Source: Nereocystis luetkeana (taxonomy: Eukaryota; Sar; Phaeophyceae; Laminariales; Laminariaceae). From it: a stretch of 64,000 nucleotides of DNA. The notes under the pieces were generated by a model, which saw only the letters and a list, made by a program, of their open reading frames with translations, ran no database searches and was not told the DNA's origin. Shown here in pieces: positions 4,869 to 63,446 of the stretch (position 1 is its first letter; every line of letters begins with the position of its first letter). Both the position numbers and the translations under genes were made by a program. The stretch covers positions 1,550,001-1,614,000 of the forward strand of contig JARUPZ010000011.1 in the NCBI GenBank assembly GCA_031213475.1. Reading direction: 5' to 3'.

Positions 4869-4974
4869 TCACAGATCGGCTTCCACACCAAGCAGCCCGG
4901 GATGCAGGAGGAGTGTCCAAAGATGGAATTATACCAGGTACAGTATAGGTCCGCCAAACAGGAAACAGCTATTA

Positions 4975-5079
4975 TTACGGGGGGGCATAGTTAACAGGAC
5001 CAAATATTGTTAGTAAAAATGGTTAAACATATAGGTTTTTATGTATACTATAGGTCCTGTTAACTATGGTCCCCCGTAA
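4975..5079. mobile_element. Family A MITE (reference copy)
   Basis: The termini are TTACGGGGG and CCCCCGTAA with about 25-30 bp of inverted repeat (CATAGTTAACAGGACC against GGTCCTGTTAACTATG) around an AT-rich core. The flanks are TA on both sides. At about 105 bp it has no coding capacity. TA target plus short inverted ends point to a Tc1/mariner-type transposase acting in trans; this is inference from the family's known target choice. Confidence 0.92.
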
Positions 5080-5082
5080 TAA

Positions 5083-5820
5083 TATCATGACGACGATGAA
5101 AGCCTTGGAACCCCGCTATGAGCATAGGCCACTACATACGATGTGAGAGTCCTTCCTACTCTTGTTCGCCTCTGAGCACGACTACCGAATCCATTTACCT
5201 CGTTCAAATAGCGTCCCCCGACAGTGAGCCTTGTCTTCTTACGAGTGTTCCTTTTCCCGTTTATACCTGTGGTACTCATGTTGCATGCACTTCCTACCAG
5301 TATACGGTATATAGAGAAGACCGCGCTTAGCGTATGCTATTAATAGATCACTAAACCTGAGACCCTACTTTCAACTTTCAACAGTAGATGAGACGCGTGC
5401 TGCGATAGGGCATACCTTATAACTAGGGCTGGGCACAGGCACAACAGTACGTACTGGCAGTACTAATCTACTGGCAGTACTAACCTATTGACAGATCTGG
5501 GCAATACACTCACCAATACCTGGTAGTTTCTATCTCACGTACGCCCAAGAAACAAGCCATATTATACCTGGTCGGGAAACCCACTAAATGCGTTGCGGGA
5601 GGAGAGAGTAGAGAGGATAGACAGTATTCTGATGCAATCCAGCAGATTGATTAGTTTCGACGACAGCATAAACGCTACTGACTGGGTCAGCCAGTGCCCA
5701 GACCTACAATGAGTAGTAATGCAGCAATTGTCCGCCAAACTACTTATAACTGACTAATATTAGCAGTATACCCTCCAACAGACGACCACCGCGTACCAAA
5801 TACGATCGGAACATTAGTTG
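5083..5820. other. Unassigned stretch
   Basis: No gene seen. It holds a TACCTGGTA micro-motif at 5517 and a tandem pair of TACTGGCAGTACTAA at about 5453-5490. Confidence 0.4.
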
Positions 5821-5824
5821 TGTC

Positions 5825-5920
5825 TTAATCCTTCAAAGACTGCAGTCCCGTTTTGGAGACAAACCACTCAAATTGTCAGTAGTTTGTCCCCTAAACAGGA
5901 CTGCAGTCCTAACACGGTAA
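5825..5920. mobile_element. Family B MITE
   Basis: The arms CTGCAGTCCCGTTTTGGAGA and CCCTAAACAGGACTGCAG surround the ACTCAAATT/AGTAGTTTG core. The left flank is TTAA; the right flank has decayed to GTAA. Confidence 0.85.
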
Positions 5921-5987
5921 ACGCACTATATTCCTTGAATGCCTAGGCCAACGGGTTGCCCTTTCAGTCTTTTCGGGTGACTTACTT

Positions 5988-6098
5988 TTACGGGGGGACC
6001 ATATTAATAGTAAATAGGACCACATATTGTCGGCAAAAATAGCGAAATATATAGTTTTTGTGTGTACCGTAGGTCCTCTTTAACATGGCCCCCCGTGA
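5988..6098. mobile_element. Family A MITE carrying a TATTAATA insertion
   Basis: Compared with copies reading CATAGTAAATAGG, this one reads CATATTAATAGTAAATAGG: six extra bases (TTAATA) at a TA, at 6002-6009. The left flank has lost its TA; the right flank is TA. Confidence 0.9.
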
Positions 6099-6100
6099 TA

Positions 6101-6690
6101 CTGGCTTACTGCTTACTATTAATAGAAGTATAGAGCTATTCAAGTCAGCAGTCCCAAAGGGCAAAAAGTAGGTTCACCCCTATCGTGTACCAGTCCGGTC
6201 ACAAACATAAGCAACGTTTACATCGTAACAAGATGTCCATATGTACCGTATACTTCTGGCCAGAATGGTACCGTATACCTGCTAGTATTCAATAGCAGGT
6301 GTCAACATTTCCTCTGTACCGAGGGGAGGCACTTCTATGAATTGACTGGATTACCTTCTGTAGCCAACGTCACAGATTTACCAGAAACGACCACTCCAGC
6401 AATCCTTACTACGACTCGTCGCTCTTTTTTGGGGTCGAGCTGTTTTACCCCCGAGAGCCTATTTATACGAGGACGAGCATTCACCTGGTATTGGATTGAA
6501 ATGCGCGCTGCACAGGGTCGAACGGCAAACGAAACGATACAAACAATAGCCAGCATGGACTGTCAAAGTGCTGCCTGGCTCTGAGCATCGCCCCAGGAGT
6601 GCTGAAAGGAAAAGCACTTTATGCAGCAGCGCGTCGTACCAAGCGAAAAAGTGTGATATTTTCCGTATTGCAAAAACGAGGGCACCCGTC
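6101..6690. other. Unassigned stretch
   Basis: Short overlapping open frames only (80 codons at most), with no recognisable domain or repeat. Confidence 0.4.
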
Positions 6691-7000
6691 GGACAGATCA
6701 TCTACAAATCATCTACAGATAGATCATCTACAGATATATCATCTACATGTTGATAATATAGATCCCAAGCTGCCGTTAGGGGATGCTGTGCAGGGTCTGA
6801 ACAGTACAGATCCAACCCAGGAAGCATACCCTAAATCTTGAAGATTGTACGGTTCCCACGCCCGGCAGCATGAGCTATGTCGTACAAATCAGGGGTCTAT
6901 CTATCTATCTATCTACCTGCCCTGAAATATCTAGAATATCAAGTGGGAATGATCTGTAGATGATCTATCTGATCTACCTGATCTATCTGGTATATCTGAT
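6691..7000 (+). repeat. Family F repeat
   Basis: The start CGGACAGATCATCTACA and the end words GATCTGTAGATGATCTATC form inverted ends. The inner block GATGCTGTGCAGGGTCTG matches the fragment at 1545. Confidence 0.7.
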
Positions 7001-7009
7001 AAATATGAT

Positions 7010-7530
7010 ATGCGGAATATTGGCAGCCGCCTGAGGCACAGGACAGCACAGCTAAGCACAGCTGGTCTTAGGCTAGGTTTCTGAAGTTGGAACCGGTGCG
7101 TTCCTCGGAAGCTTCCGTTAATGGCACCCTAATTCCTATTGCAGTGGATATATTATACCAACCAGTATCACACTCGTAGTATCAGCGTGGTTTTCTCAGT
7201 GCTCGTTTTCTTGCTGTAAAATAGTAGCATTATTATATTACAACAGCAATACCGTGGTGTAAATATAAGGTGTCCTCTCCTAAAAATCGATCTGTATATA
7301 CGTACTGTTGTGCATGTGGACCGTATACCTAGCAAATACACGAATAAAAACAGATACGATGGCACACGCGCATATGTATAGACTATTCTGAGCGGATGCG
7401 ACAGCAGTGAACGCGGGGCGCGTTAAACTCGGCCCGGTGTACGTAGACCGGACGAGCAAGGTACTACTCCAAATGCCGTAACAGCATCATTATAAAACGA
7501 TGTAAAACAGCCGAATCAATGAATAGAACG
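7010..7530. other. Unassigned stretch
   Basis: Nothing recognised apart from AT-rich spacer. Confidence 0.4.
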
Positions 7531-7535
7531 TACCT

Positions 7536-7841
7536 ATCACACGGGTGATCATATATCACACCCCCTGGGAACAACTTCCGAGTACATTTTCTCCGAACCA
7601 AGAAGTACAAACAACGAAAAGGCGACTATGGTCATATCTCGTCGAGGTCTTTCCATAGACATTATACATCGCTCGCCATATTCTTCCACTCTCGTTGCCG
7701 ATAAAATCACCTTCCAATAGGAAATTTGTCCGATGGGGTGTGATATATTACCACCCGTGTCTTCCACTCTCGTTGCCGATAAAATCACCTTCCAATAGGA
7801 AATTTGTCCGAGGGGGTGTGATATATTACCACCCGTGTTTT
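7536..7841. repeat. Family G inverted-repeat element with a tandemly doubled right end
   Basis: The left end ACACGGGTGATCATATATC and the right end GATATATTACCACCCGTGT are inverted repeats. The right 78 bp (from CTTCCACTCTCGTTGCC to CCACCCGTGT) occurs twice in tandem at 7683-7760 and 7761-7838 with one or two differences, so the terminal repeat itself has been copied. No protein is encoded. Confidence 0.75.
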
Positions 7842-7973
7842 ACCGTACTCCCCGCACCTTCCTCTACAGGGCTGAGTCACATCTCACAGCCAACACACCT
7901 ACAAGAAAAACAACCATAAAATCACTACGTATACGTTGGAGAAGAAGGAGGCCTGATTCTTGCACACCCTTGG

Positions 7974-8220
7974 ACAGATCAGATAGATCAGATAGATCAT
8001 ATCCCTACCTCATGATCTACCTCCAGCAATGGGTCTTTCAGGGCAGGCTTGTTCCTGATTGGTAATTATCTATAGTAACTGCCACTTACTCTGCACGATC
8101 TCGGACACGTCTCCTGTGTTAGATCTGTACTATACAGATCCTGCAACAAAATCTCATAGCGGCAGCTCGGGATCTACTGTAGATGGTCTATCGGATCGAT
8201 CTGCAGATCATCTACTTCGA
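7974..8220 (+). repeat. Family F repeat, diverged
   Basis: It starts TTGGACAGATCAGATAG and ends in GATCGATCTGCAGATCATC. The inner word TTTCAGGGCAG is shared with the copies at 12990 and 50326. Confidence 0.55.
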
Positions 8221-8272
8221 AGTATACGTCCTATCGTACACTGTAGCTTCAGAATGTGTTTCCTCATAATAA

Positions 8273-8281
8273 TACCTGGTA
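8273..8281. repeat. TACCTGGTA micro-motif (example of a dispersed class)
   Basis: One of 59 exact TACCWGGTA sites that I counted in the window. First bases of the others: 4932, 5517, 8511, 10869, 11216, 15238, 15400, 15533, 15544, 16243, 19919, 20243, 22290, 22767, 22797, 25044, 25051, 25058, 25087, 25102, 25109, 25174, 26798, 27371, 27804, 28464, 29038, 29147, 30246, 31651, 32613, 32639, 34113, 34120, 35321, 36984, 38819, 43035, 43149, 47734, 47894, 47901, 48131, 54384, 54391, 55181, 55448, 55775, 55833, 55874, 56033, 57656, 57823, 58234, 59559, 62445, 62559, 63392. Confidence 0.9.
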
Positions 8282-8295
8282 CTTAGTATACGGGC

Positions 8296-8430
8296 TGTGT
8301 TTCCTGCATGAGGCCATTTAAAACCAGTAGTGTCAGCGATCGAAGTATCACACACAGCTTGCAAAGATGAGTTTCGACGAAATCCTCGATCTCAAAGCTG
8401 ACGTTTTTAATTTTACAAAGATGTTCGACG
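8296..8430 (+). repeat. Family I short dispersed repeat
   Basis: Ordered words GCATGAGGCCAT, ATCACACACAGCTTGCAAAG and AATCCTCGATCTCAAAGCTG are shared with copies at 8777, 56767 and 63588. Ends undefined; no coding frame is conserved. Confidence 0.6.
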
Positions 8431-8776
8431 TGTGGAAGTTGGCGTCGGCGAGGACCAGAGCTGGTCTGTGCCTGTGCCTTCTCCCCAACGGTCCAGTAAA
8501 CAATACCAAGTACCAGGTATACCTACTGAGTAAGAAGTAAGAAGGTATATCATCTCTAAATACGGAACAGTAGATACACACACCTATCCTCTGAGTTCCA
8601 TAGCTTCAGAACTTGTTCCCGACAATAATGTGACGCCACGCTTTTAGACCTGACGCTTGAGTCATCTACCGGTGCATACATACGTAAATCTGAGGTCTAC
8701 GATAAATGACAACTGTTATTAATATTAATAATACCCTAACCTTCACAAGAAGAAATACGTCTATCCTGGATGATGC

Positions 8777-8910
8777 ATCATGAGGCCATACAGAACCCAC
8801 CGTAGTACGCCGGATCGAATTATCACACACTACACACACAGCTTACAGAGACCACTTTCCATTAAATCCTCCATCTCTTACAGCTGATTCTATTGTAATT
8901 ATAAAAAGTA
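8777..8910 (+). repeat. Family I short dispersed repeat
   Basis: TCATGAGGCCATACAGAACC, CACACACAGCTTACAGAG and AAATCCTCCATCTCTTACAG align with the 8296 copy, about 480 bp upstream and in the same orientation. Confidence 0.6.
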
Positions 8911-9800
8911 GGAGTTGTAGATGCATCGCGATAGCATTGCCGGAAGAAGACAAAGCAGACACACCGGTTGGCGAGACACTTGCAATGTATGCAAAGTACA
9001 ATAAATACAAAAGAACCGGCACACAACAGGTACGTCCCTCATTAAGCACTAAATATAAAGGTTTCGATCGTATGACGGTTTAAAACGCCTGAAACGCCTC
9101 CGGTCTAAAGCGAGGTCAAAACTAAAAGTGAGCAATGAAGCGACATGAGACATAAATATCATCTGTGGCCACAAGCCAAAACTTACTATTATAACGATAA
9201 CGATCTGGTTCGTATTGTGTGCTCGCACATATTATGAAACTATGAGTATTCGTTTTATATTCTAGAGGAGAACTCGTACGTAGTATTCCGGAGTTTGTGT
9301 GTATTGTATGGTCGTATGCTGGCCATTCCGAGCCACGAAAACGTGAAAACAATGTGGAGTCGACACCCAGCAACGCCTTCACAACATCAACAACACCAAG
9401 CGGGCAAAGAAAAGACAGCGAGACAACCAGCCGGCGAGGAAAATGACGGATGCCAAAACTGGGTGTTGATTGGTTGCGCTTGCACACACACCGCCGTCGG
9501 CCAATCAGGAGGCTGCAGAAACGCCTTGACGAAGTCATTATACTCTTTTGCCCCGTATTACCGCCAAACAGGATTGCACACTACACTATGAAGCCTGATT
9601 CCAACTTCAAAGAGTGTTCCGGAAACGTGGCTGCAGTACTACTGTATGAATATTCGCACGTACTGTGTAGGGTACCAACTGTAAAATCATGCAGTACGAC
9701 AGCGATTAGTCTACACGTTTAATGTAGACATGCTCGTAGTGCAGCTATCAATAGCGCACCTGATGCACACGAACGACACGATATACCCGTAGCGTACCCC
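8911..9800. other. Unassigned stretch with paired inverted CCAAT words
   Basis: TTGATTGGTTGCGCT (about 9464) and GGCCAATCAGGAGG (about 9498) are inverted CCAAT-type words about 35 bp apart. A similar pair lies at about 32161-32196. They could be promoter-like, but no gene start can be tied to them. Confidence 0.3.
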
Positions 9801-9817
9801 CCCCCCCCCCCCTCCCA

Positions 9818-9897
9818 ATTGCAGTCTACGGACTCAGAGAAACCAACAAGCACGGGATGCGCCTAATTGCAGTCTACGGACTCAGAGGAACCAACCG
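9818..9897. repeat. Short direct duplication
   Basis: AATTGCAGTCTACGGACTCA followed by GAG and AACCAAC occurs twice, about 48 bp apart, beside a poly-C run (9799-9812). Confidence 0.8.
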
Positions 9898-9899
9898 TC

Positions 9900-12320
9900 C
9901 AAAATTAGCACTTGAAACAAACGAATCACGATCTCCATCATTGCAGCCTTTGGTGGAACGTCGAATACGTCGGCGCGGCGTGGGATCTCAGGGAGGCTTG
10001 ATTAGGCCTGCCGGCGGCTAATTGTACACGCAGGGTAGGCTCCGAGGGCTCGGGTCCGGGTGGGATAAAAAAACAAAGCGGGAGCTGGGAAGGGCGTAAA
10101 CAGGTTGAATGAACCGTGGACCTTTGGTGTATCTCTCAGTCCGTGGACTGCAAGTAGGCGCGCTTCCCAGCACTACCCCCTCAAGACTCAGGACTTGGAC
10201 CATATACCACGGGAAAACGTGAATAGGGTATTGCAGACCAGCGCAACTGGTAGTTTATGCTCGAGAAATGAGCTGCATTATTTTATGGGCCCGTGAACGG
10301 AATAGAGGACAGGGACAATTTTGCCGAGAAATACTCCGACCGTCCGACCGTGACGCGTTTGCTGCATCGTTTATACGTGCCGACACCCGCGCCCGGTATT
10401 ATATGATACTTGCATACCAGGCGCATACGTAACAGCCATGGCCTGTGTGGGTAGGTTGGGTGGCCCAAGAGATCTCCAAGTCAAAGGGGCAACAAGAAAT
10501 GTACGTACGTACTGCCGCGATAATGCAATTCTGACGCGAGAGGGACAACATCGACAGCACAAACGACTACTATTAAAACACCATCGGCCAAACGAAGCAC
10601 TCCTGGGCGAGCGCGGTCGTAAAATCAGCGCTCCAACTGCCGGTGCGAGCAGTAAATCGTGTTCCGCGGCACAAGGCCGACATGGTGCTATAGGTATATA
10701 TGTGCTGCTGCGCGCTGACAGTACGTGATTCATAGACGATTGATATGACCGCACTTGGCATTCTTGTCGTGGGAATGCCTGGGTGCCTCCTCCCCCAATT
10801 CTGTTTTTGCCAATACGCGCACAAAATAATGCACACATTATACGGGTATGCCTGTGAATGTTAATACATACCTGGTATGTGAACAAAAATAATTCAAGCA
10901 TTACACCAGGTACATTACGTGAGTACAGTAAGGACTCGCCAACACGAACAAGCCAGAGAACCTTACTATAGCGACAACCTTGAATAACCTTGACCATAGG
11001 CTATTAATAGTGTATGCCAGGTATATTTTAATAGTAGGATTCAACGTAGCAAACGCCGCTCAACACGAATTTTTAGTCCAAGTTTCTTAGCATCCCCGAA
11101 AAAGTTAATCTTACGTTCTTTTTCTTACACTAGATTAATTCATATTCGCGTGTCTATGCTGTGAATGTACGTCATTTTGGCATCGCTTACTGTTGTAACA
11201 ATATAGCAAAAACACTACCTGGTACGACTATATGATACGCAAGGTGCACGATCACGAGCGCTTGGTACGAGATTAAGCTCACGTAAAGGTCCAGACTCTG
11301 GAGCCTTTCATACGATGTAGGCTGCGTACCGCCAGTTGTGGAAGGCAATCAACATCAAGTTTTTTTCTTACAAGTGTAGCTGAACCTAGAGCTCTCGTGT
11401 CAATTATAGTTACCACCAAGTATCATATGTATCATATGGATATACCTGGTGGCATCGCTTAGCGCGGCAGAAAAAATACTGTAGAATACTCCATGTGTAT
11501 ATTGGTGTACTCGGACGGCCGCACGAAGAGTCCTGGACTCCTGGAGAAGAATAAGTATGAATACTAAATACTATTAATAAGAATAGTTGGTGCGCTTCTG
11601 CACCGGCGCGGGGAGAGTCTAATGAATACTTTGTTTGCCGATAACTGACAGTGCTGTAGAGCTACGGCTACAGCTGGGAGTACAACACCCGACACCGGTT
11701 GCAATTGCATCTCAGTATTCGCGGAGCTGCAAGGTGAAGCGTATGACAGGATCCTCGGAAAGTCAATAGGTACCTGCAAGCAAGCTTACACTTTACCCGT
11801 TAGGCACCCGATAGGGGGGAAAAAAAAAAAAAACGACGGAAACAGCACGACGACTACACCACACCTGGCCGCCGGACTGCGGTACACGACACCCTTAACG
11901 CCCCCAGCTCAACTACACGACACGCGCGCTGCAATCCACAACTCAAACGGCTGATGACATTGATCACAATCGACGGTTCGTGCAGATATTTGTGTGTGCC
12001 ATTTTTTCGGCCGCTCGACCTGCGCCTAAAGAAACGTTCCACGAACAAGCGTACATGACGACTGAACGTCGATGATGGCATTCTTAGGGTCGTTTAAAAC
12101 GACACGTATTCGGCTAAAAAAATGCCAACATAGCCCTTATACCCTGAATCTAAAGAGAACGTCCCACAAAACGTTCCTTTTTCGACTGAAAGCTGATGGA
12201 GACATTCGGAAATATGAAAAATCGTCACGAAAAGCTCCAAACCTTACTATATGCTGGTTCCTGGTAAGCTTTCGGGACCCATGTATAGCACCCGATCGTA
12301 TGACACCAAGGTCAGAAGGA
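9900..12320. other. Longest block without a recognised feature
   Basis: No MITE, SINE or LINE piece is visible. The longest frame is 208 codons on the minus strand (10371-10997); it is overlapped by open frames in other phases and has no motif, so I do not call it. Micro-motifs TACCTGGTA at 10869 and 11216 and TATTAATA near 11004 and 11568 are present. Confidence 0.4.
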
Positions 12321-13468: not shown

Positions 13469-13573
13469 TTACGGGGGACCATAGTTAATAGGACCTATGG
13501 TATACATAAAAACCTATATGTTTAACCATTTTTACTAACAATATTTGGTCCTATTAACTATGGTCCCCCGTAA
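13469..13573. mobile_element. Family A MITE
   Basis: A near-perfect 105-bp copy in the orientation opposite to 4975, flanked by CTA and TAG on the two sides (TA duplication). Confidence 0.92.
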
Positions 13574-25043: not shown

Positions 25044-25182
25044 TACCAGGTACCTGGTACCAGGTAAGCAGTAGTACTTACGCCTGTACCTGGTACTCTT
25101 GTACCTGGTACCTGGTATGCATGAAATATACCAAGTACGAGGGTATATACACGAACCACGAATACTATCATAGTACCTGGTA
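25044..25182. repeat. Cluster of TACCWGGTA micro-motifs
   Basis: Seven exact copies in under 140 bp. At 25044-25066 three follow head to tail, each sharing a TA with the next (TACCAGGTACCTGGTA and on). At 25102-25117 two more are fused in the same way. Sharing of TA is what sequential events at TA sites would leave. Confidence 0.9.
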
Positions 25183-27313: not shown

Positions 27314-27432
27314 TTACGGGGGACTATAGTAAATAGGGCCAAATATTGTTGGTAAAAATAGGTAAATATATACCTGGTATGTTTTTGTGTGTAACGTAGG
27401 TCCTACCATGTATTCAATATGGCCCTCCGTAA
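27314..27432. mobile_element. Family A MITE with a TACCTGGTA insertion
   Basis: Where relatives read AAATATATAGGTTTT or AAATATATATGTTTT, this copy has AAATATATACCTGGTATGTTTT; the extra bases are at 27371-27379. Outer ends TATTACGGG and CCGTAATA are intact. Confidence 0.92.
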
Positions 27433-27949
27433 TAGTATTCGTCGATTGCCGCTATTTCATACCGGGAAGAAAAAACGGCGGGATTGTAACTCACGCAATC
27501 GACCTCAGAAGTCACGAGGTTAATATTAATAGTCCGTCGGGGCGACTGTTTCCCAGCACCAGCGTGTGTGCTGTAGTTCGTATGATGTGATATTTGTTTA
27601 GACTGCGTACAGCGGTGTACTCGTACGAACTTGATTCATGTCGTAGGATGACGAGTATTGGTGTGTCAAGGGCATACCGGCCGATGCCATGCTCCGACAA
27701 GTTGGTTGATCTCACTGGATTCTGCTTTCTACAACCACGTGAGAGCAAGAATCATCTGGTCAGAAAAAAGTGCTTGCGCGCTTGCTATACTCACCACAAG
27801 TAATACCTGGTATATTGTATCCCAGGTACATTATATATTACATATTATATGGTCCACTCCAAAGTGCTACAGCAGTACTTCAGCAGTATATTTACCAGAG
27901 GTATAGATGTACGGTACTCGCTTACCAGCAACTTTCCACAGGTGCTCCA

Positions 27950-29415: not shown

Positions 29416-29522
29416 TTAACCCTTTTAGGACTGCAGTCTCGCTTGGGAGACAATTGGGGACATATCACTCGGAATTTGAGTGGTTTGTCCCCAAAACGGG
29501 ACTGGAGTTCTAAAAGGGTTAA
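29416..29522. mobile_element. Family B MITE
   Basis: TTAACCCTTTTAGGACTGCA at the left and TTCTAAAAGGGTTAA at the right, both TTAA-flanked. The left arm has a duplicated GGGGACA word near the centre (AGACAATTGGGGACATA). Confidence 0.92.
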
Positions 29523-29591
29523 TACGTAGGGAAGACTTCGTACCAACGTGGTTCATAAAGGTGATTATTTGTGTGTACGACGAACTTCGAA

Positions 29592-30077: not shown

Positions 30078-30188
30078 TTACGGGGGACCATAGTTAATAG
30101 GACCTGTGGTACACATCAAAACCTACCAGTATATATTTAACCATTTTTACCAACAATATTTGGTCCTGTTAACTATGGTCCCCCGTAA
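30078..30188. mobile_element. Family A MITE with a CCAGTA insertion
   Basis: AAAACCTACCAGTATATATT replaces AAAACCTATATATT: six extra bases forming TACCAGTA at 30124-30131. TA flanks both ends. Confidence 0.92.
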
Positions 30189-32585: not shown

Positions 32586-32711
32586 CTACGGGGCACCATA
32601 GTAAATAGGGCCTACCTGGTACGCTACAGACAAAAACCTACCTGGTATATATTTACCTATTCTTACTATTTAATAACAGAATTTTGTCCTATTTACCATG
32701 GTCCCCCCTAA
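32586..32711. mobile_element. Family A MITE with three micro-insertions
   Basis: Left end CTACGGGGCACCATAGTAAA, right end ACCATGGTCCCCCCTAA. TACCTGGTA sits at 32613 and again at 32639, and TATTTAATA at 32667-32675; each is absent from sister copies at the same position. Confidence 0.92.
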
Positions 32712-33809: not shown

Positions 33810-34380
33810 CAGGACGGGCACTGGGTGAACTGATGTACTGATTGGAGTTGTGGGTAGAAATAACGGTTTACAGACATTTTTGGAGGGCAAATATATGAAG
33901 GATGGGTGCGCGACACACCTTAAATCTCTCGTGTCGTCGTGTTGCTGCCAGCTGATTGCTGCTGTAGTCCTGCCCACAGAGTTTGTATAATTCTTCGTAG
34001 TATATTATTAATATTAATAGTAGGATGAAAAGCCAGCACGTGGCTGTGCTGGATGTCCATGCGTAGAAATATTGGCTGTTGGTGTAATGTGGAGACACAC
34101 CCCGGTCGCGCGTACCAGGTACCTGGTATGATCTAATCATGGACATATCAGGGGGTGTCTTGACTCCCACCGCACCAAAGAGCATGGGAACGAGCGGGAC
34201 GGAAGGAGGCTGTTCGTGGTCATTCGTTCTGTTCCTACCTAAAAAAACTTGTTTGGGTCCATGCAGAATCCTGGGCCTCGCCAGCCGAATCGGCACGAAC
34301 GGTATCTTTTGGACATCCCAAAGCGAATTGGTGTCCACATCCATCTTCGGTGGTGTCCATCTACATCAAATAATCTGCTA
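33810..34380. other. Unassigned stretch
   Basis: Micro-motifs at 34113 and 34120 (fused) and two overlapping TATTAATA near 34005-34019. Frames of 132-158 codons on opposite strands overlap. Confidence 0.4.
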
Positions 34381-37312: not shown

Positions 37313-37898
37313 CCTTTTGCCGCACGGTCTACCAACTCGTTCTTGTTCCCATCAAAAGCGGCCTTGCTACTGCTGTCGCCCCCTCCCCCCTCCCTTCGAC
37401 GCCACCCATAGTGGTGGTGATTTCTCGTGCACTGCGTAGCCTGCTCTCCTCTGCTTCCGCCCTGTGCCACCTGTCCGTGAACCGTTCCGCTGCTGCGAGG
37501 ACCCCCCGGTACCACTCGCCCCCCCCCCTCCCCTCCCGTGTTTGTGTACATGCAGTTGCCCACCGCACGGGCTCCACTCCGAACACCAACGGGGATTTTT
37601 TTCCGTGCACCCCTCCGTGGCTCGAAGTACTTGGAAGGCGTTTTCTAGACGGTTGCTTCATTGCTTTTGGGGGGTCGGATTGATGTCGGTCTTCTCCCCG
37701 CAGGACGTTGGCGCGAACATTATCACCCGTCTGGGCAATTCGCGCCTCCTTGTCCCGTGCCATGGCCCCCGCAAAGACTAGCCGCCGTTTTATTCGTGTT
37801 GGATTGCTGTCTTCTTTAGGGCATTGGCGTGCGACACGGTGGGGTCCCGGTGGGGGGTCGGTACGTTGCCTCCGGCGACGGAAGCCAATGGCCCGCAA
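37313..37898 (-). pseudogene. LINE C-terminal region (copy 3)
   Basis: The minus frame has RRRQRTD, IKRRLVFAGAMARDKEARI, KSPLVFGVEPVRWATA and GGEWYRGVLAAAERFTDRWH, followed by a short glycine-rich stretch and KNELVDRAAKG. The order matches copy 2 on the plus strand at 25.6-26.1 kb. It is 5'-truncated. One 189-codon frame covers most of it, so it is less broken than the other copies, but it has no RT or endonuclease. Confidence 0.85.
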
Positions 37899-37899
37899 G

Positions 37900-38390
37900 A
37901 GGAAGCGGTGATGAGCAGTTCGGACTTTGGCGGGTTTGTCTGATTATTTTCCGTCATACAAGGCGGCCAATATGTTACACTGATGCTGTCTATATATCAC
38001 GGAGTACTGTTTCCGCGGTGACACATGAATGATACTATTTTAATATTAATATGATTAAGGCCAGGTACTTGATATAGCAAGTATGTATGAACCAAGAGAA
38101 AAATGTTGGTTGTAAATAAAGGAGATCTAGCGAGTGAAATAAATGACAGATATTGTTCGTTGGGTACAAAAGAGAACCATCGCAGCCGAACCGAAATAAG
38201 AGAAGGAGGAGAAAATGAGTCACGTGTGAAATACATTTCTGCTGGGGAATTACAGTAGTGTCAGGTATAGTTGAAGCTCCCATCGTATGCACTCATGCCG
38301 TTCCTAATGTCATTCCTATTTTATTGTATACGAAGCATAGTTAGTATGATGAATATTTTCTCGTCTTCCGACCATGCGCAGCTTAACCCT
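37900..38390. other. Unassigned stretch
   Basis: No feature recognised apart from a TATTAATA near 38044. Confidence 0.4.
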
Positions 38391-38798: not shown

Positions 38799-39002
38799 TT
38801 ACGGGGGACTATAATAAATACCAGGTAGGACCTTCGATACTAAAAAAACCCCTGCATATTTCGTTTTTTTTACTATTACGGGGGACCATAGTTAACAGGA
38901 CCTATGGTGTACATAAATACCTATATATTTAACCATTTTTACTAACAATATTTGGTCCTGTTAACTATGGCCCCCCGTAATAACAATATTTGGTTCTGTC
39001 AA
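38799..39002. mobile_element. Family A MITE (host of another copy), right end lost
   Basis: It starts TTACGGGGGACTATAATAAA after a TA, carries TACCAGGTA at 38819, is split at 38875 by a complete family A copy, resumes at 38983 with ACAATATTTGGTTCTGTC and then stops without the CCCCCGTAA end. Confidence 0.92.
38876..38980. mobile_element. Family A MITE inserted in family A
   Basis: A complete 105-bp copy. The host reads TTTTTACTA before and TAACAATATTTGG after. Uninterrupted copies read TTTTTACTAACAATATTTGG, so exactly TA was duplicated and the mobile unit is TTACGG...CCGTAA. Confidence 0.96.
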
Positions 39003-43059: not shown

Positions 43060-43236
43060 ATGTCAGGAAGCATGTCAAGCAAGGCAAAACGTGCGCGGTC
43101 AAGGGTGCAGGGCCGAGTGGCCCACACTATAACCAAGTAGTTACATGGTACCAGGTAGTACTTTCATGTCAGTCAAGGCATGTCGACGCTCAATTGTTCT
43201 GTCTGTCATGGTGTGAAAATGGCGTGTCCTGGCACC
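43060..43236. repeat. Family E element, reverse, with a TACCAGGTA insertion
   Basis: ATGTCAGGAAGCATGTCAAG to GGCGTGTCCTGGCACC. Near the middle, between AGTAGTT and TGTCAGTCAAGG, it has extra bases including TACCAGGTA (43149) that 51095-51227 lacks. Confidence 0.78.
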
Positions 43237-47449: not shown

Positions 47450-47965
47450 CAGCCGAGATGTGTGTGACAAATAATAACCTGTTGAGCTGCTTGTCACATG
47501 CTACTGCTACTGCTACTCACGGACATGTGTCTGCATCTCTAGCCGACCGAGAGTGCCAATCCGAATCCCGAGCACAAGCGTCTGCTCTGCGTGTACCTGC
47601 TGAGCTACAGGGTCGGATCGATTGCCCGGCACAGGGCATGCCTTATCGCCTGGTAAATAATATCACCTTGCATGATGACTGCCACCGGGCTACTAGGTTG
47701 CTTGTAACGCTTGGTGGGGCCTAAACAATGGCATACCAGGTAGTTCTTGTTGCATCGTCTGTCCCTGGTGTCTGCGACCAGCGCTGGCGCTGGATGTGCT
47801 GGTGGGTGTCGACGGCAGAAATATCGCACACCGCCCGTTCGCGATGGTTAACCTCCCGCGTGGTTTATTGCGTGGTATTTCTACAGTAATACATACCTGG
47901 TACCTGGTACGAGGTACCTGTTATGCCCCCTTGGGAATTGGAGGGGGCCAAAATTACGAGAAAAA
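47450..47965. other. Unassigned stretch
   Basis: TACCWGGTA at 47734, 47894 and 47901; no gene. Confidence 0.4.
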
Positions 47966-48095: not shown

Positions 48096-48345
48096 ATGGG
48101 GGGGTAGGGAGGGAGGAAGAGCCTGCTGTATACCAGGTATGATGTGACCCCGGGTCTGAGGTACAACTGTTGGCCCTTTTAGAACCGCAGTCCCGTTTTT
48201 TGGGGACAACCCAATCAAATTCCAAGTAGATTGTCCCCAAAACGGGACTGCAGCCCTAAAAAGGGTCATAAGTAAGAGAGAGAGAAACACGAAATGCCAA
48301 GAAAATGAATGGGATGGATGGGGAAAAAAGAAGAAAAATGAAGCC
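48096..48345 (+). repeat. SINE family C split by family B, with a TACCAGGTA insertion
   Basis: GAGCCTGCTGTA, then TACCAGGTA (48131), then TGATGTGACCCCGGGTCTGA where relatives read GCCTGCTATGTGACCCC. After the family B copy the SINE resumes with GAAAATGAATGGGATGG and an A-rich tail. Confidence 0.8.
48171..48270. mobile_element. Family B MITE inside SINE family C
   Basis: GGCCCTTTTAGAACCGCAGT to CTGCAGCCCTAAAAAGGGTC; two extra T in the left arm; TTAA flanks lost. Confidence 0.9.
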
Positions 48346-54206: not shown

Positions 54207-54528
54207 ACTACAGCAGTACTCTAGTTGTTTCTACTTTTAGGAGACAATACGTATATACGCACTTTTTGACGAAAGCTATTGGCTCTTTCTACGCACTGGT
54301 ATATGCAAACTTTCATACATGCACATTTTGCACAGCTGCACTTCGAGCTCTGGCAGTCACATCGCGTTCGATTCCATTCGAGGTACCAGGTACCAGGTAT
54401 CATGTCGTGTGTTGCATGTTGAAGACGCGGTGGGTGGTCGTTCTTGATTTATTAGATTCTCTCGCGCAGGTTGGAGGGTCAAGTTCTCAGATAAAAAGTC
54501 CCAACACTGCTTGATTACTTGTTTTTCG

Positions 54529-55427: not shown

Positions 55428-55539
55428 TTACGGGGGACCATAGTTAATACCAGGTAGAACTTATGGTATACATGAAAACCTATATATTTAACCATTTTTA
55501 CTAACAATATTTGGTCCTATTAACTATGGTCCCCCGTAA
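55428..55539. mobile_element. Family A MITE with a TACCAGGTA insertion
   Basis: CATAGTTAATACCAGGTAGAACTTATGG replaces CATAGTTAATAGGACCTATGG at its centre: CCAGGTA (seven bases) is extra, at 55448-55456. TA flanks intact. Confidence 0.94.
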
Positions 55540-55980: not shown

Positions 55981-56098
55981 TCACGCGGGACCATAGTTAA
56001 TAGGGCCTGCGGTACACACAAAAACCTACCAGTACCAGGTATATAAGTACCAATTTTTACTAACAATATTTGGTCCTGTTTACTATGGTCCCCCGTAA
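55981..56098. mobile_element. Family A MITE with two adjoining micro-insertions
   Basis: AAACCTACCAGTACCAGGTA: TACCAGTA (56027-56034) and TACCAGGTA (56033-56041) share a TA. The CCAGTA insertion sits at the same place as in the copy at 30078. Left end TCACGCGGGACC after a TA. Confidence 0.92.
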
Positions 56099-56638: not shown

Positions 56639-56766
56639 ACGAAGTGCACTGCTGCTGTAGCATGCTGTGCCTACTTCGAAGGTTGTAAAACACCGCACAC
56701 TGATGTAGCTCTCTTGATCGCTCTGTTTGCTGATATGATATATTCAATAGCCACAATCCACAATAG

Positions 56767-57104: not shown

Positions 57105-57215
57105 TCAAGACTGCCTTTTACTGTAGGGCTGCAGTCAGTCCCGTTTTGGGGGGCATATTACCCAGAATTTGACTGGTTTGTCCCTAAAAGGGGGACGGCT
57201 GTCTCAAAAGGGAGG
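57105..57215. mobile_element. Family B MITE, degraded
   Basis: CTGCAGTCAGTCCCGTTTTG and GACTGGTTTGTCCCTAAAAG remain, with ACTGCCTTTTACTGTAGGGC and CTCAAAAGGGAGGGG at the ends; no TTAA. Confidence 0.7.
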
Positions 57216-57355
57216 GGTTCGGGGATAGCGCCCCCAAACAAAAAATAATGTTGGTGTCATCAACCGTGTAGGAGCAGCGTCAGCGCCCAGCAGTGTGTAC
57301 GTGCGGGTAGGATCATGGTGCGCCCGCGCCTGTGCCGTATGGCTCCTTGCTTGAA

Positions 57356-57434
57356 TCTCGGACGGCTCCTTGCCTTGAAACTTGGACGGCTCCTTGCCTT
57401 GAAACTCGGACGGCTCCTTGCCTTGAAACTCGGA
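57356..57434. repeat. 24-bp tandem repeat
   Basis: GGCTCCTTGCCTTGAAACT in 24-bp steps, about three and a half units. On the minus strand it gives an 8-residue FQGKEPSE repeat inside a 150-codon frame (57204-57656). The period is a multiple of three, but nothing else supports a gene. Confidence 0.85.
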
Positions 57435-57809
57435 CACCAATCTGTATCGCCCCCCAGCCCTGCCTGCAGTGGCCGCTGCTGTAGTCGGCCCTTGTCCGTC
57501 GTCATTTTGTTTCCACTCTGTAACCCCGGGAAGAGGGCCATCAACGCCTTCGGGACTTGATTCTATCTTGATTGCATCTTCATTGTTGTGGTGCACGTTT
57601 GCTACGATAAGGATGCACCTAGTTTTTTCACTCCCCGGTTGAGGGCTCTGCACCATACCTGGTATATATATATGGATATTCTGATATATGGATATACTTC
57701 GAAGTATGGATGTATGGATATTTGCTTACCCATAACCTGACCCTGACGAAAAAAGGTGCAACCCGATGGACCATCTCATGGCCTCGTAAACAAACACAAG
57801 CGTGAATTT

Positions 57810-58085
57810 AAGGCGTATGCCTTACCAGGTATAAGGCATGCTTTTATTGGGTAGTATATATAAGGCATACGTCTTATAAGGCATGCCTTACTGGGTAGTG
57901 TAAGTCGCACGCCTTGTGCGACATGCCTTACTGGGTAGTACAAGGCATACTTCGCATATGCCTTCTAAGGCATGCCTTACTGGCTAGTACGAGTACAAGG
58001 CATACATACGCCTTCCAAGGCATACCTTATTGGGTAGTATGAGGCGTATGCCCTGTAAGGCGTGCCTTGTTGGATGGTGCCTCAA
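57810..58085. repeat. Palindrome array: AAGGCATGCCTT and GGGTAGT units
   Basis: Five to six units of about 45-55 bp, each with a hairpin-forming AAGGCATGCCTT or variant (GTCGCACGCCTTGTGCGAC at 57903) followed by ACTGGGTAGTA. Units differ in sequence but arms stay complementary. TACCAGGTA lies at 57823. Confidence 0.85.
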
Positions 58086-58089
58086 TTGA

Positions 58090-58545
58090 GAAAGCCCCGT
58101 CAGTCAAAAACATTTGTCTTGCAAGGCAAGAAAAGGTGCTACCCCCTAATTGCAACCCCTACTATCGTGGCACGCATCGCCATAACAGGAGGAAAGTGTC
58201 CGAAAAACGCGACGATGGCAGCGTCGTCGCCCATACCAGGTACTAAGCAACCCGGGCCGCTGGTTACCTCTGGGTAGGGTATCATACATGGAGAAGTGTT
58301 CCATATACCCGAACTTCTACGCGACGTGTGTAGGAGTGTAGCCGTAAAGAGGTAGAGGTCGTTGGGGTCGCACAGTATTATGTTTTGTTTTTAGCGGTTT
58401 CGAAAGTTTGCTCTTAGGAACGGTCAGGGCGGTACAGCAGTAACGCCGAATACTATATTTTCGGAAGGCTCTCTCTTTTGATCAGATCGACCAGATTTTT
58501 TTTTTTTTCCCCCGAAAATCCCTTGATGTTGTTCGGTATTGGCAA
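58090..58545. other. Unassigned stretch
   Basis: No feature recognised; TACCAGGTA at 58234. Confidence 0.4.
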
Positions 58546-58549
58546 AACC

Positions 58550-58656
58550 TTAACCCCTTTAGAACTCCAGTCCCGTTTTGGGGACAAGGCACTCAAATTT
58601 CCAAGTAATTTGTCCCCAATCGTCCCCAAAACGAGACTGCAGTCCTAAAAGGGTTA
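58550..58656. mobile_element. Family B MITE
   Basis: TTAACCCCTTTAGAACTCCA to GCAGTCCTAAAAGGGTTAA, both TTAA kept. The right arm has a duplicated GTCCCCAATCGTCCCCAAAA. Confidence 0.93.
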
Positions 58657-59070
58657 ACCTTCCCTTTATTCTGGAAAAATCGTGCGCTGAGAAACGATCG
58701 CACCCCCCTGTGAGAACTCAGCGCTCCTTTACGGCTTGCGTGGCATTATCACATTATCACATTATCGGAGTACATACCCGAAGTTATACGAGAGGATACG
58801 AAAGGAGTTACTACTGTAGTGTTTCTACAGTACAGTAGTGCTGTATGTAGTTGCATATCTACATCAAGTACCCCTGCGAGCTGCACGCAAGGAGTTGGTT
58901 GCACGACCCGCATGCTGCATGAGACGACGTACATGCTTGTACGGCGTGCTGGCCCCTCAGAGGACGGCTGACCACACCACACCACACCACACCGCCATAC
59001 CTGCCATCTTGCTTGTGGCTGTATCGGGATGAAGGTGTAATGCCGTCACGGACTCAAGGGGCGGGGGGGG

Positions 59071-59300
59071 GGTGAGGTAGTCACGTCATGCGTTGCCGTA
59101 GCCGTGTGACCATAGACCCTCGCACCCCTAAAAGCAATGCCGAGACGGACCACGTCGAGTTTTCACCTCCCAGGGAGCTATATAGTTCTTGTAGCTAACG
59201 CGAAGCGCCGTGAGGTCGTGCGGCGAGTCGCATGAAGGGCGGGCTGCATCCTACTCCATACTAAGACCTAAGAACCGCTCGTGCGGCGGGCTTTCTTGCG
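59071..59300 (+). repeat. Family D repeat
   Basis: After a G9 run: GTCACGTCATGCGTTGCCGT, GTCGAGTTTTCACCTCCCAG, GCGAAGCGCCGTGAGGTCGT, CGCATGAAGGGCGGGCTGCA. Confidence 0.78.
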
Positions 59301-59403
59301 TATGGATGGGTCACAGCGTCGGCTGGGGGGTGGTGCTTTTCTGCGATAGGTGATTACGTCCTCCCCGCTGTCTGGCCACTGTCTGACCAGTGTCTTGACT
59401 CTC

Positions 59404-59499
59404 CGGGTTTTAGAACCGCAGTCCCGTTTTCGGGACAAACTACTTGAAATTTGTGTGGTTTGTTCCCAAGACGAGACTGCGGTTTTAAAAGCGTTTTAA
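59404..59499. mobile_element. Family B MITE, followed by a second partial copy
   Basis: GTTTTAGAACCGCAGTCCCG to CTGCGGTTTTAAAAGCG, then TTAACCCCTTTTGGGACTTG begins a left half that fades after 59555 (AAATTACTTGGAG). Two copies abut at TTTTAA. Confidence 0.85.
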
Positions 59500-59559
59500 C
59501 CCCTTTTGGGACTTGAGTCTCGGTTAGGGGACAAATTACTTGGAGTTAGAATGACAGGT

Positions 59560-60820
59560 ACCAGGTATATGTTATCTGCATGCCACTCCGACACCGAATT
59601 TAAGGCACGTCTGTACTTTATCATTTAGTGCAAACGATCCTTGTATTTATATATAAGAGGGTTATTTAGCCAAAATAAGGCATACCTGTTCCATTATGGA
59701 CCAAAATCAGGTACATACTTCGTAAAAACAAGTGAAAAACACACGCCAGGATCCCTGCCATTTGGCCAGCCTCACGTGGTACCTGCTTTTGGCTTGAAAC
59801 TGACCAAAGGTACGTACACCTACTACCTGTATTTGTCTACTTTGTCGACTGCTGTAGCTTTCCACTGTTTTCGCCTGATTTTGAGTCAATGAGAGAGGCC
59901 ATACGTACACTATCTGTTGTTTCTCTTTGCGTATGCGCCTCCGGTCCCTCGGTTGCATTTCTCGTGTGAGAACTCTGTACGTACGACGTGCTCAAGCATA
60001 TACATGCGTACGCTGATTTCACGTTTCCTTCCTTGGGGTGTAGGATGTGCTTCCGTTGTTATGATGAGTAGTCCCCTGTTTTCTACAGTATAGTCAAAGT
60101 AGGAGTCATATAACAGCACCGCCGTGGACAGAAACGGCAGTTCGTCTGCCCCACCCCGCGTCGAGGTGGTCCCAGGTTTGGTACGGCAAAATAAGTTCGT
60201 GCCGAGCAGGCGGTTCCGTGGGTTCCGTGAGGACGATCGAGAGGCTCCAAAGCTGGCACCCTGGGGCAGAATAAATAATGTTGGCGCGCGCACCGTGACG
60301 AAACAAACAAAGCCTATCTGTAGTGACCCTCTGCAGGTCCAAGTGGAGCCCATGGTACCTGCACCCTAAACAAACAAAGCCATTCAGATTTTGGAGCCCA
60401 CACGCTCAATATTTGGACGCGAAAAAGTGTGTGCTTGGGGTTTCTCAAGACCATAAAACACCGCTCGTGGCGTTTTTTTTCAACTCGATTTCAGTATGAA
60501 ACTGTCTTCGACCCGAGTTGAAGAGGTGTGCCTCATTTCGGCTGTTGCCCATATTCTATAAGAGCGTTAACCTGTCCCCAAGTGCTACATAGAAAGGATC
60601 GTTTGGATCAAATATTATAATATTGATGTATAGATAGACCGCTGAGAGTGGTAGTCCTCGGGTAGCAGGGTTACATACTATTGTACTATACTATTAATCG
60701 TTTTACGGGGCTGAAGTGTTGTGCAGAAAGTATGCCCATGTACTCGCAGTTCGGTCGGCGAGATCGCTCTATAACCAACACCAACAGTATATATGTTGAT
60801 GTTTCCAGCGTTACTGAGGT
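59560..60820. other. Unassigned stretch
   Basis: A 147-codon minus frame (59910-60353) overlaps open frames in other phases; no domain. GGTTCCGTGGGTTCCGTGAGG near 60207 is a small repeat. Confidence 0.35.
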
Positions 60821-60831
60821 TGGTGGAGGGC

Positions 60832-60894
60832 GATGTGACCACCCGACATAAGATGTGACCACCGACATAAGATGTGACCACCGACATAAGTACT
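60832..60894. repeat. 20-bp tandem repeat, three units
   Basis: GATGTGACCACCGACATAA in three steps (the first unit has an extra C). Confidence 0.92.
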
Positions 60895-61333
60895 TGTACG
60901 GCTGCACTCCTCCACGTATGGACATGGTTGTGTCCGGAGTTGTCGTGCGGGTATTACTCCGCCATCGTACTGCTGCTCGGATGGCATTGCTCGGGTGTTC
61001 TGGCTACTCGTACTTGTACTATTAAAATGAGAACTGCACGCAGGCCAGGTACCGCCTATGGTGTTATTAATAGTAAGTTGTATAATTATTATTAATAATG
61101 TTAATAGTATATGCGCAGGGTTATATTGAATCGCATGAACAGATGAAGGCAAAGGCTGCATGCATGCATGACCGCTCACGCGAACAGCCTGACCCGTACA
61201 AACATTTAGCATTTCAACCTTTCCAACAATGCCATAATTTGAACGTCCATTCGCGATGGTTTGTTCTATTTTCTTGTTCGTCTGCGTTATAACAAGGGAC
61301 TGATCTCATCTCTTGGAGCAAGAAAATGAAATG
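60895..61333. other. Unassigned stretch
   Basis: TATTAATA words near 61063 and 61088; no gene. Confidence 0.4.
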
Positions 61334-61336
61334 CTA

Positions 61337-61446
61337 CTACGAGGGACCATAGAAAAAAGGACCAAATATTGTTAGTAAAAAAGCGAAATATATATGGTAG
61401 ATTTTTTGTGTTTGCCGTAGGTCCTTTTCAATATGGTCCCCCGTAA
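61337..61446. mobile_element. Family A MITE
   Basis: CTACGAGGGACCATAGAAAA to AATATGGTCCCCCGTAA; ends diverged, TA on both sides. Confidence 0.86.
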
Positions 61447-62260
61447 TAGTGCTCGTGCGATGTCTTATCGCATCATGTCACTCTTGGTATATAAAATACA
61501 CAAGTACAGTATGTACGAGTAGTCTACATCAATACCGTTTACACCAGTGCGACGGATTGCATAGCAGCAGTATATAGCAGTACACCTGGCACATACCGAC
61601 GTGTACTATAAATAAGTAAAACCGCTGCTGCTGCAGGCAGGGCAGCTGTAGTAGAGCTCACCGCGTGTTCGGTATCATTGGTTGACGCGCACACTGACTG
61701 TGCGGTAGACGAACGAAGACGTGCCAACGGCTGATTGGGTTGGGATTGGGGTCAGGGTTACTGGTAGTTGTATTCTTACGGTATACGTAGACACGGTGAG
61801 TCTCAACCATATTGTCGAAAAAGTTGGTGAAATCCCCTCTGCAGCAATACTTGCCGACTGTACGACGTATGGCGTATAGCGATACACGCGCTCTGGTGAT
61901 GCGGCACCGCTATGGTATATTAGCTGTTAGCTGTGCACCGCAGAGCACTTGCTTGCATGCTTCACTTAGTTTGCCATCGTGCATAGGGGAGAGGGCAGAC
62001 GAGAGCACTCGAACGCACGTACACCTGGTACCATGCTGAATAAAAAAAGTGCGAGCTGTTTTCACTAGGCGTGGGCGCGGTTTTTAGGACGGCGTGTTGA
62101 GAGCGGCTCACTCGCGAGTCGGCAGCTTGCCGCAACCCCCCCCCCCCCCCCCCACGCGTCAATCGACGTTGAGGTGAAGGTGGTGTGCCCTATCTCGCAC
62201 CCGCCCCAGCTGCCGCACCCCCACGCCCTATTCCGCCCCGCCCGGTCGGAGACGGGCCGT
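61447..62260. other. Unassigned stretch
   Basis: Holds a C17 run (62138-62154) and (TAG)CAGCAGTA words near 61563-61582. No gene. Confidence 0.4.
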
Positions 62261-62263
62261 CTT

Positions 62264-62332
62264 TTAACCCTGTTAGTGCTTTTCACTGCGCGCACAGAAA
62301 CCAACATTTTTGTCCCCGAGACTGGAGTGCGA
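62264..62332. repeat. Possible decayed family B copy
   Basis: TTAACCCTGTTAGTGC and TTTTTGTCCCCGAGACTGGAGTGC are in the right order, but the left arm is replaced. Confidence 0.4.
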
Positions 62333-62572
62333 TGACTGAGGGGGGAATGGTTGTTGTTTGACTGCTTTTTGCCTACCTCTGTCGCTTTTTTTCAAGCTGG
62401 GTCTGACGTGCTTCGATTATGTAGGTATTTTAAATGTACATCGGTACCAGGTACTGCCCTGGTCTGAAATGTTCAAGCACCGGACGTGAGGGCAGAACGG
62501 TCGGTATATTTCCCATCGAGAGCTGTACAGTAATGGTACGTATAGACGACCAAGATGATACCAGGTACAGTA

Positions 62573-62676
62573 TTACGGGGGCCATAGTAAACAGGACCTA
62601 CGGTACACATAAAAACCTGTATGTTTACCTATTTCTGCTAACAATAGTTGGTCCTGTTTACTATTGTCCCCCGCAG
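62573..62676. mobile_element. Family A MITE
   Basis: TTACGGGGGCCATAGTAAAC to GTTTACTATTGTCCCCCGCAG; TA on both sides. Confidence 0.9.
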
Positions 62677-62919
62677 TAGTAGCATGTGCTACATATCGAA
62701 ACGTACCACTCTGACCGGGAATATTACGTCGTTTCGATGTTGATACCAGATGCCAAACGTACACTATGTTCCCGTTTTTTTGTGTGCATGAAGGCACGTT
62801 GTGGGCTCAACATCCTAGCTTTAGTCTCGGGTCTAGTGAGGGGGAAGTCACGCACCTCTGTGGTACTATCGAAAGCAGTACCAGTCCGGAGTACCGAAAC
62901 CCGTTGGGACTTGAGACTA

Positions 62920-63025
62920 TTACGGGGGGCCATAGTTAACAGGACCAAATTTTGTTAGTAAAAATGGTCAAATATATAGGTTTTTTATGTATACCATAGG
63001 TCCTGTTAACTATGGCCCCCCGTAA
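62920..63025. mobile_element. Family A MITE
   Basis: TTACGGGGGGCCATAGTTAA to TTAACTATGGCCCCCCGTAA, a near-perfect inverted repeat with TA flanks. Confidence 0.94.
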
Positions 63026-63264
63026 TAGAAGAATGGCGGTAGAGGGTGACCGCTGCAGCACCGGTCACTTCGTGTGATTGGGGGATGACACACACCGGTG
63101 CCCTGTTTTACTTTCTAGTCACATGACGGCAGTCCGATCACTCGTACAACAGGGGCGCGACATTGTCCTATCCGTACATACCGCTCGGCACCCACGCTGC
63201 TCCCAGACCGTTGGTAACACACCAAACCTATCAACCATTCTTCGGTCGCTATCTAATGCCACTA

Positions 63265-63334
63265 TTAAGGGGGGACTATTGAAAGTAGGACCTACGGTAC
63301 ACACAAAAACCTACATATTTCGCTGTTTTTACTA
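63265..63334. mobile_element. Family A MITE, left half
   Basis: TTAAGGGGGGACTATTGAAA through CGCTGTTTTTACTA, cut exactly where the next copy begins. The right half is not found. Confidence 0.86.
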
Positions 63335-63446
63335 TTATGGGGGGCCATAGTTAACAGGACCAAATATTGTTAGTAAAAATGGTTAAACATATACCTGGTA
63401 GGTTTTTATGTATACCATAGGTCCTGTTAACTATGGTTCCCCGTAA
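63335..63446. mobile_element. Family A MITE with a TACCTGGTA insertion
   Basis: TTATGGGGGGCCATAGTTAA to ACTATGGTTCCCCGTAA. TACCTGGTA at 63392-63400 replaces the single TA of AACATATAGGTTTTT. It sits at ACTA of the preceding half copy, the same target used at 38874. Confidence 0.94.

Follow-up and report, generated by a model that had tools for sequence, protein, structure and literature searches.

The window examined here, a stretch of 64,000 nucleotides on contig JARUPZ010000011.1 of the brown alga Nereocystis luetkeana (positions 1,550,001 to 1,614,000), holds copies of a repeat that we call family A, together with two short words that both begin and end in TA. The more frequent of these is TACCWGGTA (W being A or T), which stands at 59 exact sites, 26 of them TACCAGGTA and 33 TACCTGGTA as read on the + strand, where the mean over 100 dinucleotide shuffles was 0.53 and the maximum 4, in agreement with the original prediction of 59 sites against about 0.5 in random sequence. 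The other is TATTAATA, found 44 times against about 0.9 expected (for instance at 6002, 8717, 22487, 45381 and 61065). The best explanation of TACCWGGTA, and one that we hold with good though not full confidence, is that its copies are excision scars of a cut-and-paste transposon specific for TA; below we set out the evidence for this reading, the points that weigh against it and the alternatives.

The word is frequent throughout the genome. In the assembly (465,085,209 bases, 1,987 contigs) one strand carries TACCWGGTA 182,395 times, against 1,744 occurrences of the same word read backwards (the reversed control); this is a scale that the original prediction had no means of knowing. The density is 0.92 per kb in the window, and the mean of the genome as a whole is lower, 0.39 per kb, the roughly 180,000 scars amounting on average to about two per 5 kb. 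Twenty other 10-kb stretches chosen by place (C1-C5; L005-L024, with 192,500 readable bases) have 53 sites or 0.28 per kb, about a third of the density in the window; one of the twenty, L005, overlaps a listed direct double of the word. Within the window 48 of the 59 sites fall outside five arrays of adjoining words.

How the word arises can be read from the family A copies, which were aligned from 27 stretches, some of them partial. The original prediction named seven sites in this family at which CCWGG and one more TA stand where sister copies have a single TA, and at six of these (27371, 32613, 32639, 38819, 55448 and 63392) the difference is exactly that. At the seventh, 56033, the copy has 13 extra bp, composed of CCAGTA and CCAGGTA (6+7), and the family A copy at 30079 carries CCAGTA alone at the same place. 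Outside family A, the repeat unit with the site at 57823 differs from its neighbour at 57865 by exactly 7 bp at a TA. Two further examples put forward earlier did not stand: a family E copy at 43149 has 21 bp more (3+18 or 21) than three of its four relatives and 3 more than the fourth, a partial match, and for the SINE (short interspersed nuclear element) at 48131 no relative spanning the site was found in the sequence examined. Empty relatives have one TA and scarred copies two, which is insertion at TA with duplication of the TA, as judged from the scars themselves. In individual repeat copies TACCWGGTA comes about when 7 bp, CCWGG and a TA, are inserted at an existing TA (Table 1).

Table 1. 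Scars, scar arrays and family A features in the window
Feature	Position	Basis
TACCWGGTA span, 59 sites	4932..63400	exact-word scan
TATTAATA, second scar type: 6-bp TTAATA insert (6004) at TA of family A copy 5989-6097	6002..6009	
Family A element without CCWGG scar; TA target, ends TTACGGGGGACC; own scar probably TATTAATA	13470..13572	
Triple-scar array TACCAGGTACCTGGTACCAGGTA	25044..25066	word scan
Double scar	25102..25117	word scan
TACCTGGTA scar, 7-bp CCTGGTA insert; family A copy 27315-27440	27371..27379	alignment; 16 empty relatives, 1 filled
TACCATGTA, variant insert of 7 bp at TA; family A copy also scarred at 27371	27404..27412	alignment, trap test
TACCAGTA, short variant scar, 6-bp insert (CCAGTA); family A copy 30079-30187	30124..30131	alignment
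TACCTGGTA scar; family A copy 32587-32710	32613..32621	alignment; 15 empty relatives
Second TACCTGGTA scar in family A copy 32587-32710	32639..32647	alignment; 7 empty relatives
Double scar	34113..34128	word scan
TACCAGGTA scar; family A copy starting 38800	38819..38827	alignment; 9 empty relatives
Double scar	47894..47909	word scan
Double scar	54384..54399	word scan
TACCAGGTA scar; family A copy 55429-55538	55448..55456	alignment; 17 empty relatives
13-bp insert CCAGTA+CCAGGTA (5-nt scar nested in 4-nt scar); family A copy 55981-56097	56029..56041	
TACCAGGTA scar in local repeat; neighbour unit 57865 with single TA	57823..57831	trap test, repeat comparison
TGGTA-type partial scar, ambiguous placement; family A copy 61338-61445	61395..61400	alignment
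TACCTGGTA scar; family A copy 63336-63445	63392..63400	alignment; 16 empty relatives, 1 filled

The same question was put to all words of the form TA-N5-TA by a trap test, in which the 7 bp were removed and relatives of the closed sequence sought in the window and the twenty comparison stretches. Among the 109 of 112 TACCWGGTA sites with enough flanking sequence, 15 had a relative with a bare TA and four had one with the same word, three of these sites having both, while the other TA-N5-TA words (n = 1,011) had an empty relative in 29 cases and the same word in 103 (Fisher p = 2e-6). Seven of the 15 positives lie in family A, two in other local repeats (57823 and L010:5266, the latter within a tandem repeat) and six were matched to other scars or arrays, which leaves about nine that are independent of arrays; for 56033 the two relatives scored as empty carry CCAGTA or CCGGTA at that place.

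The scars also share a target preference, seen in flank statistics that exclude direct doubles and pool both sides of each scar (256,500 readable bases). The first base after the outer TA is a pyrimidine in 159 of 202 scar flanks, against 17,748 of 29,044 (61%) for all TAs, and at the seventh position 168 of 202 have A or T, against 14,834 of 29,044 (51%; p = 3e-21), an excess that stays at 114 of 149 once sites with TA at +6/+7 are removed. Around the target TA the preference is symmetric, R-TA-Y with A/T at +/-7, and since one scar supplies two TAs at a distance of 7 bp, in keeping with this preference, a scar would draw further insertions. Direct doubles (TACCWGGTACCWGGTA) occur 15,917 times genome-wide, against 2 for the reversed control, and equal 8.7% of the scar count, whereas among all TAs (14,532 in 256,500 bases) roughly 1.4% belong to scars; part of this excess may come from regional density. 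The doubled word was also found in nine stretches of viral contigs, which we take as chance level, no expectation having been computed. By a hand count of the first 58 plus-strand places among the doubles listed, 23 are AA, 16 TT, 14 AT and 5 TA, that is, 39 in the same and 19 in opposite orientation (p = 0.012).

Besides the dominant form, the sequence between two TAs takes several related lengths (expectations from a third-order Markov model). CCAGG occurs 112 times against 2.7 expected, CCGG 14 against 3.8, CCAGGG 8 against 0.64 and CCATGG 3 against 0.41, whereas CCTGGG is absent (0 against 0.49), and repeats carry both CCAGTA and CCGGTA as insertions of 6 bp at a TA (window 30126, L015:5632). 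Directly after a scar the pattern CC-N4-TA stands 4,348 times genome-wide, against 22 for the reversed control, and 100 of these, classified by hand as listed, include 34 with CCAGGG/CCCTGG, 8 with CCAG+TA, 7 with CCGG+TA and 3 with CCATGG. Of the 2,835 candidates with TACCWGGTACCWGG followed by a base other than T, 20 were read, among which 7 are TACCAGGGTA and 7 have CA replacing TA; the 40 candidates with TACCWGGTACCAGGGA that were read, all with A (from 197 with A, C or G), include 8 of CCAGGGATA and 7 of CCAGGGATG. The variants CCAG, CCAGGG and CCAGGGA beside CCAGG, and in particular the asymmetry by which CCAGGG is enriched and CCTGGG is not, suggest that the transposon had ends of the form 5'-CCAGGGA that were cut mostly 5 nt inside.

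It had also been argued that the mixture of A and T at the centre is exactly what repair of a central mismatch, known from Tc1/mariner footprints, would predict. This support must be rejected, because TACCAGGTA is the reverse complement of TACCTGGTA and the two are hence one duplex, so that their ratio (56:56 in our dataset) is expected anyway and the mixture is no independent evidence. What is informative is the rarity of a G:C centre, with 8 CCCGG against 133 CCAGG in a 302-kb set that includes loci picked because of their scars. A longer candidate end, TACCAGGGAGTGAA, stands at 12 places in the genome (reversed control 0), of which four share one repeat, presumably SINE-like, five (L107 and L094/L114-L116) belong to family A copies and three are alone. 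L094, L107 and L110 read TA-CCAGGGAGTGAA-TA, which may represent a 12-nt scar. The family A copy at L094, L114, L115 and L116 bears, besides a CCAGG scar, an insert of 14 bp, CCAGGGAGTGAATA, and its occurrences on three small contigs are probably duplicate or unplaced sequence.

Family A provides a positive control for this kind of reasoning. The element has the form TA|TTACGGGGG...CCCCCGTAA|TA, with TA before the ends in 30 of 36 cases, and the word TATTAATA, which on both strands occurs 150 times against 14.8 expected, has flanks that resemble those of the element (C at -1 in.53 of scar and.67 of element flanks, A at -2 in.56 and.63, T at -3 in.47 and.63; 150 scars and 30 ends), against.20,.30 and.30 for all TAs; the flanks of CCWGG scars also differ from those of TATTAATA. 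Because it has the flank preference of family A, TATTAATA is probably the excision scar of that element. A TTA and a TAA overlapping at TA would give the TTAA footprint, for which an ordinary 3-nt overhang would suffice. In the trap test a relative was empty for 5 of 66 TATTAATA sites (a microsatellite in one case) and filled for none, and TACTATTAATAGTA occurs 1,131 times against 1. Given this pair of scar and element, it is very probable that excision scars are retained and inherited in this genome, one kind of them with its parent in sight. Family A with TATTAATA is like the CCWGG scar in its TA target, in the few bases left between two TAs and in having a target preference of its own; it is unlike it in that the parent is abundant, the target CTAG-like and the footprint TTAA, whereas the CCWGG scar has the target RTAY and a parent not seen.

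We read TACCWGGTA as an excision scar because five lines agree: 7-bp TA inserts in single copies, the target preference, the doubles, the length variants and a second scar whose parent is visible. To this extent the original prediction of a TA-specific transposon is partly upheld, without its argument from W and with no parent found in partial searches. Such an element would insert at TA, duplicating it, and when it left, some of its terminal bases would stay behind between the TAs. If its ends begin 5'-CCAGGGA, the strand left on the flank would be cut within the end, usually at 5 nt but at times at 4, 6 or 7 nt, and the 3' overhangs CCAGG and CCTGG could pair at four of their five bases, the central mismatch then being repaired either way to A:T; the rare CCATGG would result if two overhangs of 3 nt were filled in and then joined. 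The parent would by now be very rare, decayed or extinct in the assembly. A fuller picture, in which a 'ghost' transposon with CCAGGGA ends and an unusually long 5-nt stagger left some 180,000 heritable footprints, scars seeding further scars, and has itself all but gone, we offer tentatively, as something that falls slightly short of an even balance.

Several observations count against the excision reading. The dominant footprint has 5 bases, against 1-4 in the Tc1/mariner cases published in the parts available of two sources (PMC3878927, PMC1925063). CCAG, a member of the proposed ladder of lengths, is scarcely enriched (20 against 13.7), and TCAGG (12 against 1.8) and CGAGG (9 against 3.2) are enriched though the ladder does not predict them. 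The excess of same-orientation doubles means that part of them may be tandem duplications, not second insertions. Above all, no intact parent of the CCWGG scar was found in partial searches of the genome, nor in the window, where its absence had already been claimed. The 59 distinct scar-adjacent places read (from the 20 of 2,835 and 40 of 197 candidates above) showed no recurring downstream sequence; a genome-wide search for elements of 78-199 bp bounded by exact TACCAGGGA gave a single pair, which is scar-rich and whose two ends match over no more than 7 bases beyond the TA (reversed controls 0 and 1); and the profile of the Tc1-type transposase domain DDE_3 had no match in the genome, its controls matching in 3 of 14.

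The other searches concern particular candidates. In 276 kb, inverted pairs ending in CCAGG/CCTGG with flanking TAs were pairs of scars, except for L008:9151-9647, with ends CCTGGGGTATGTAC (also at L013:32), which was set aside as a parent because its matching arms run outward past the TA (pair 9146-9652) and because CCTGGG footprints are not in excess. The same region belongs to a repeat with inverted arms (L008:8849-9940, L008:9146-9652, L013:32 and L056:981) that holds TACCCTACCTGGGGTATGTAC or part of it and contains the scar-like TACCTGGGGTA. The Transposase_1 profile gave no match in the genome, its control matching nowhere either, and the pogo-type DDE_1 profile gave 28 matches (best 3.4e-28), of which the 12 loci read, over about 3 kb each, had no CCAGGG ends. 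At L058:721-2636 stands a pogo-type element with an open reading frame (ORF) of 325 amino acids that matches DDE_1 between TA-flanked inverted ends GCACCGGGGTGCGATA (15/16); these ends begin GCACCGGGG, not CCAGGG. In the window itself six ORFs matched 0 Pfam families each, Rfam (at the gathering threshold) and tRNA scans found nothing, and the ORF at 37329-37943 had no protein homologs among 593 candidates.

The alternatives can be weighed against the same observations. If 7 bp were added directly at each site, by break repair with a fixed filler, by telomerase-like addition or by abortive integration of a single end, a full element would never have been present there, which would agree with the finding that no intact element adjoins the 59 scar-adjacent places read and that scars vastly exceed candidate parents. 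The second TA, the near-palindromic core with its A/T centre and the variants up to CCAGGGA look instead like two inverted ends joined after excision, and TATTAATA is a scar of the same kind with a visible TA-flanked parent, so that we consider direct addition improbable. Very improbable in our view is a heptamer repeat, (TACCAGG)n, spreading like a microsatellite by slippage or tandem duplication: doubles are common and their orientation leans to the same side, as such a process would have it, but most window sites lie outside the arrays, single 7-bp copies stand at bare TAs in unrelated repeats, family A offering several that are isolated and whose empty counterparts have no heptamer next to them, the target preference is found on both sides of the scar, and the 19 of 58 doubles in opposite orientation are not expected from slippage.

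A site selected for protein binding or modification would account for a word that is exact, near-palindromic and very frequent, and CCWGG is also a site of the Dcm/EcoRII type. A selected site should not be present in one repeat copy and missing in its sisters (15 empty against 4 filled in the trap test), nor does it lead one to expect insertions flanked by TA or length variants between two TAs, and we regard this explanation as extremely unlikely. To programmed removal, by which germ-line elements would be excised from the sequenced tissue like the internal eliminated sequences of ciliates, we likewise give next to no credence, even though it would explain scars without parents: many scars have one-letter variants (12 CACCWGGTA/TACCWGGTG in the window against 59 exact, a raw count with chance occurrences not subtracted), and 7 of the 20 TACCWGGTACCWGG candidates have CA for TA, as inherited and ageing scars would, and the sequence read gives no sign of a second genome. 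Excision of a TA-specific transposon thus remains the reading that we prefer.

Several known systems come close. Sleeping Beauty and Frog Prince leave the footprint C(A/T)GTA, and Tc1/mariner excision leaves overhangs of 2 or 3 nt (PMC3878927, with the footprints in its Table 1). The scars described here resemble those footprints in the TA target, in the short run of terminal bases, centred on A/T, between two TAs and in a structure that suits end-joining of 3' overhangs; they differ in having 5 bases, with variants of 4, 6 and 7, where those footprints have 3, in having no parent found and in their number, 182,395 sites in one genome. In grasses the Stowaway MITE (miniature inverted-repeat transposable element) and Osmar5 leave 1-4 bp of terminal repeat, and there too pieces of the form TA...TA, several footprint types and an insertion that came in next to an older footprint are seen (PMC1925063); those are single loci, whereas here one dominant 5-nt form extends genome-wide. 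A comparison of two rice genomes reports 94 putative excisions of DNA transposons, only eight of them perfect (PMC4423477), and is like the present work in counting scars over a genome and unlike it in that here one uniform scar dominates. By analogy the CCWGG scar would work like that of a Tc1/mariner element, membership in that group being unproven because no intact parent was found. A literature search covering few subscription journals found no published 5-nt CCWGG scar and no such scar density.

In the parts available of the literature cited, the excision scars studied are those of individual loci or number in the tens. The number found here allows footprint lengths, repair outcomes and target choice to be read statistically from one genome with the element missing, and TATTAATA, whose parent is present, makes this way of reading scars checkable. 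The inserts of 7 bp, spread over the genome, would break the reading frame if they fell in exons and could serve as presence/absence markers in populations.

Other words of the form TA-X-TA are also in excess in the window and L005-L024, namely TACAGCAGTA (26 against 1.8), TACGAGTA (57 against 13.8, many in a microsatellite) and TACAGTA (106 against 46); the last two resemble the footprints of Minos and Sleeping Beauty. In the trap test an empty relative was found for 2 of 29 TACAGCAGTA sites, 9 of 57 TACGAGTA sites (all in a microsatellite of L011) and 2 of 106 TACAGTA sites. The window further contains, at 29416-29523, an inverted repeat that lies between TTAA sites and has the ends CCCTTTTAG...CTAAAAGGG, which we take to have the look of a piggyBac-type MITE; TAAAAGGGTTA occurs 11 times in the window, counting both strands. 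At L020 an ORF encodes a reverse transcriptase whose three named relatives, among the 120 listed of 1,336, are from Ectocarpus sp., with 53-57% identity.

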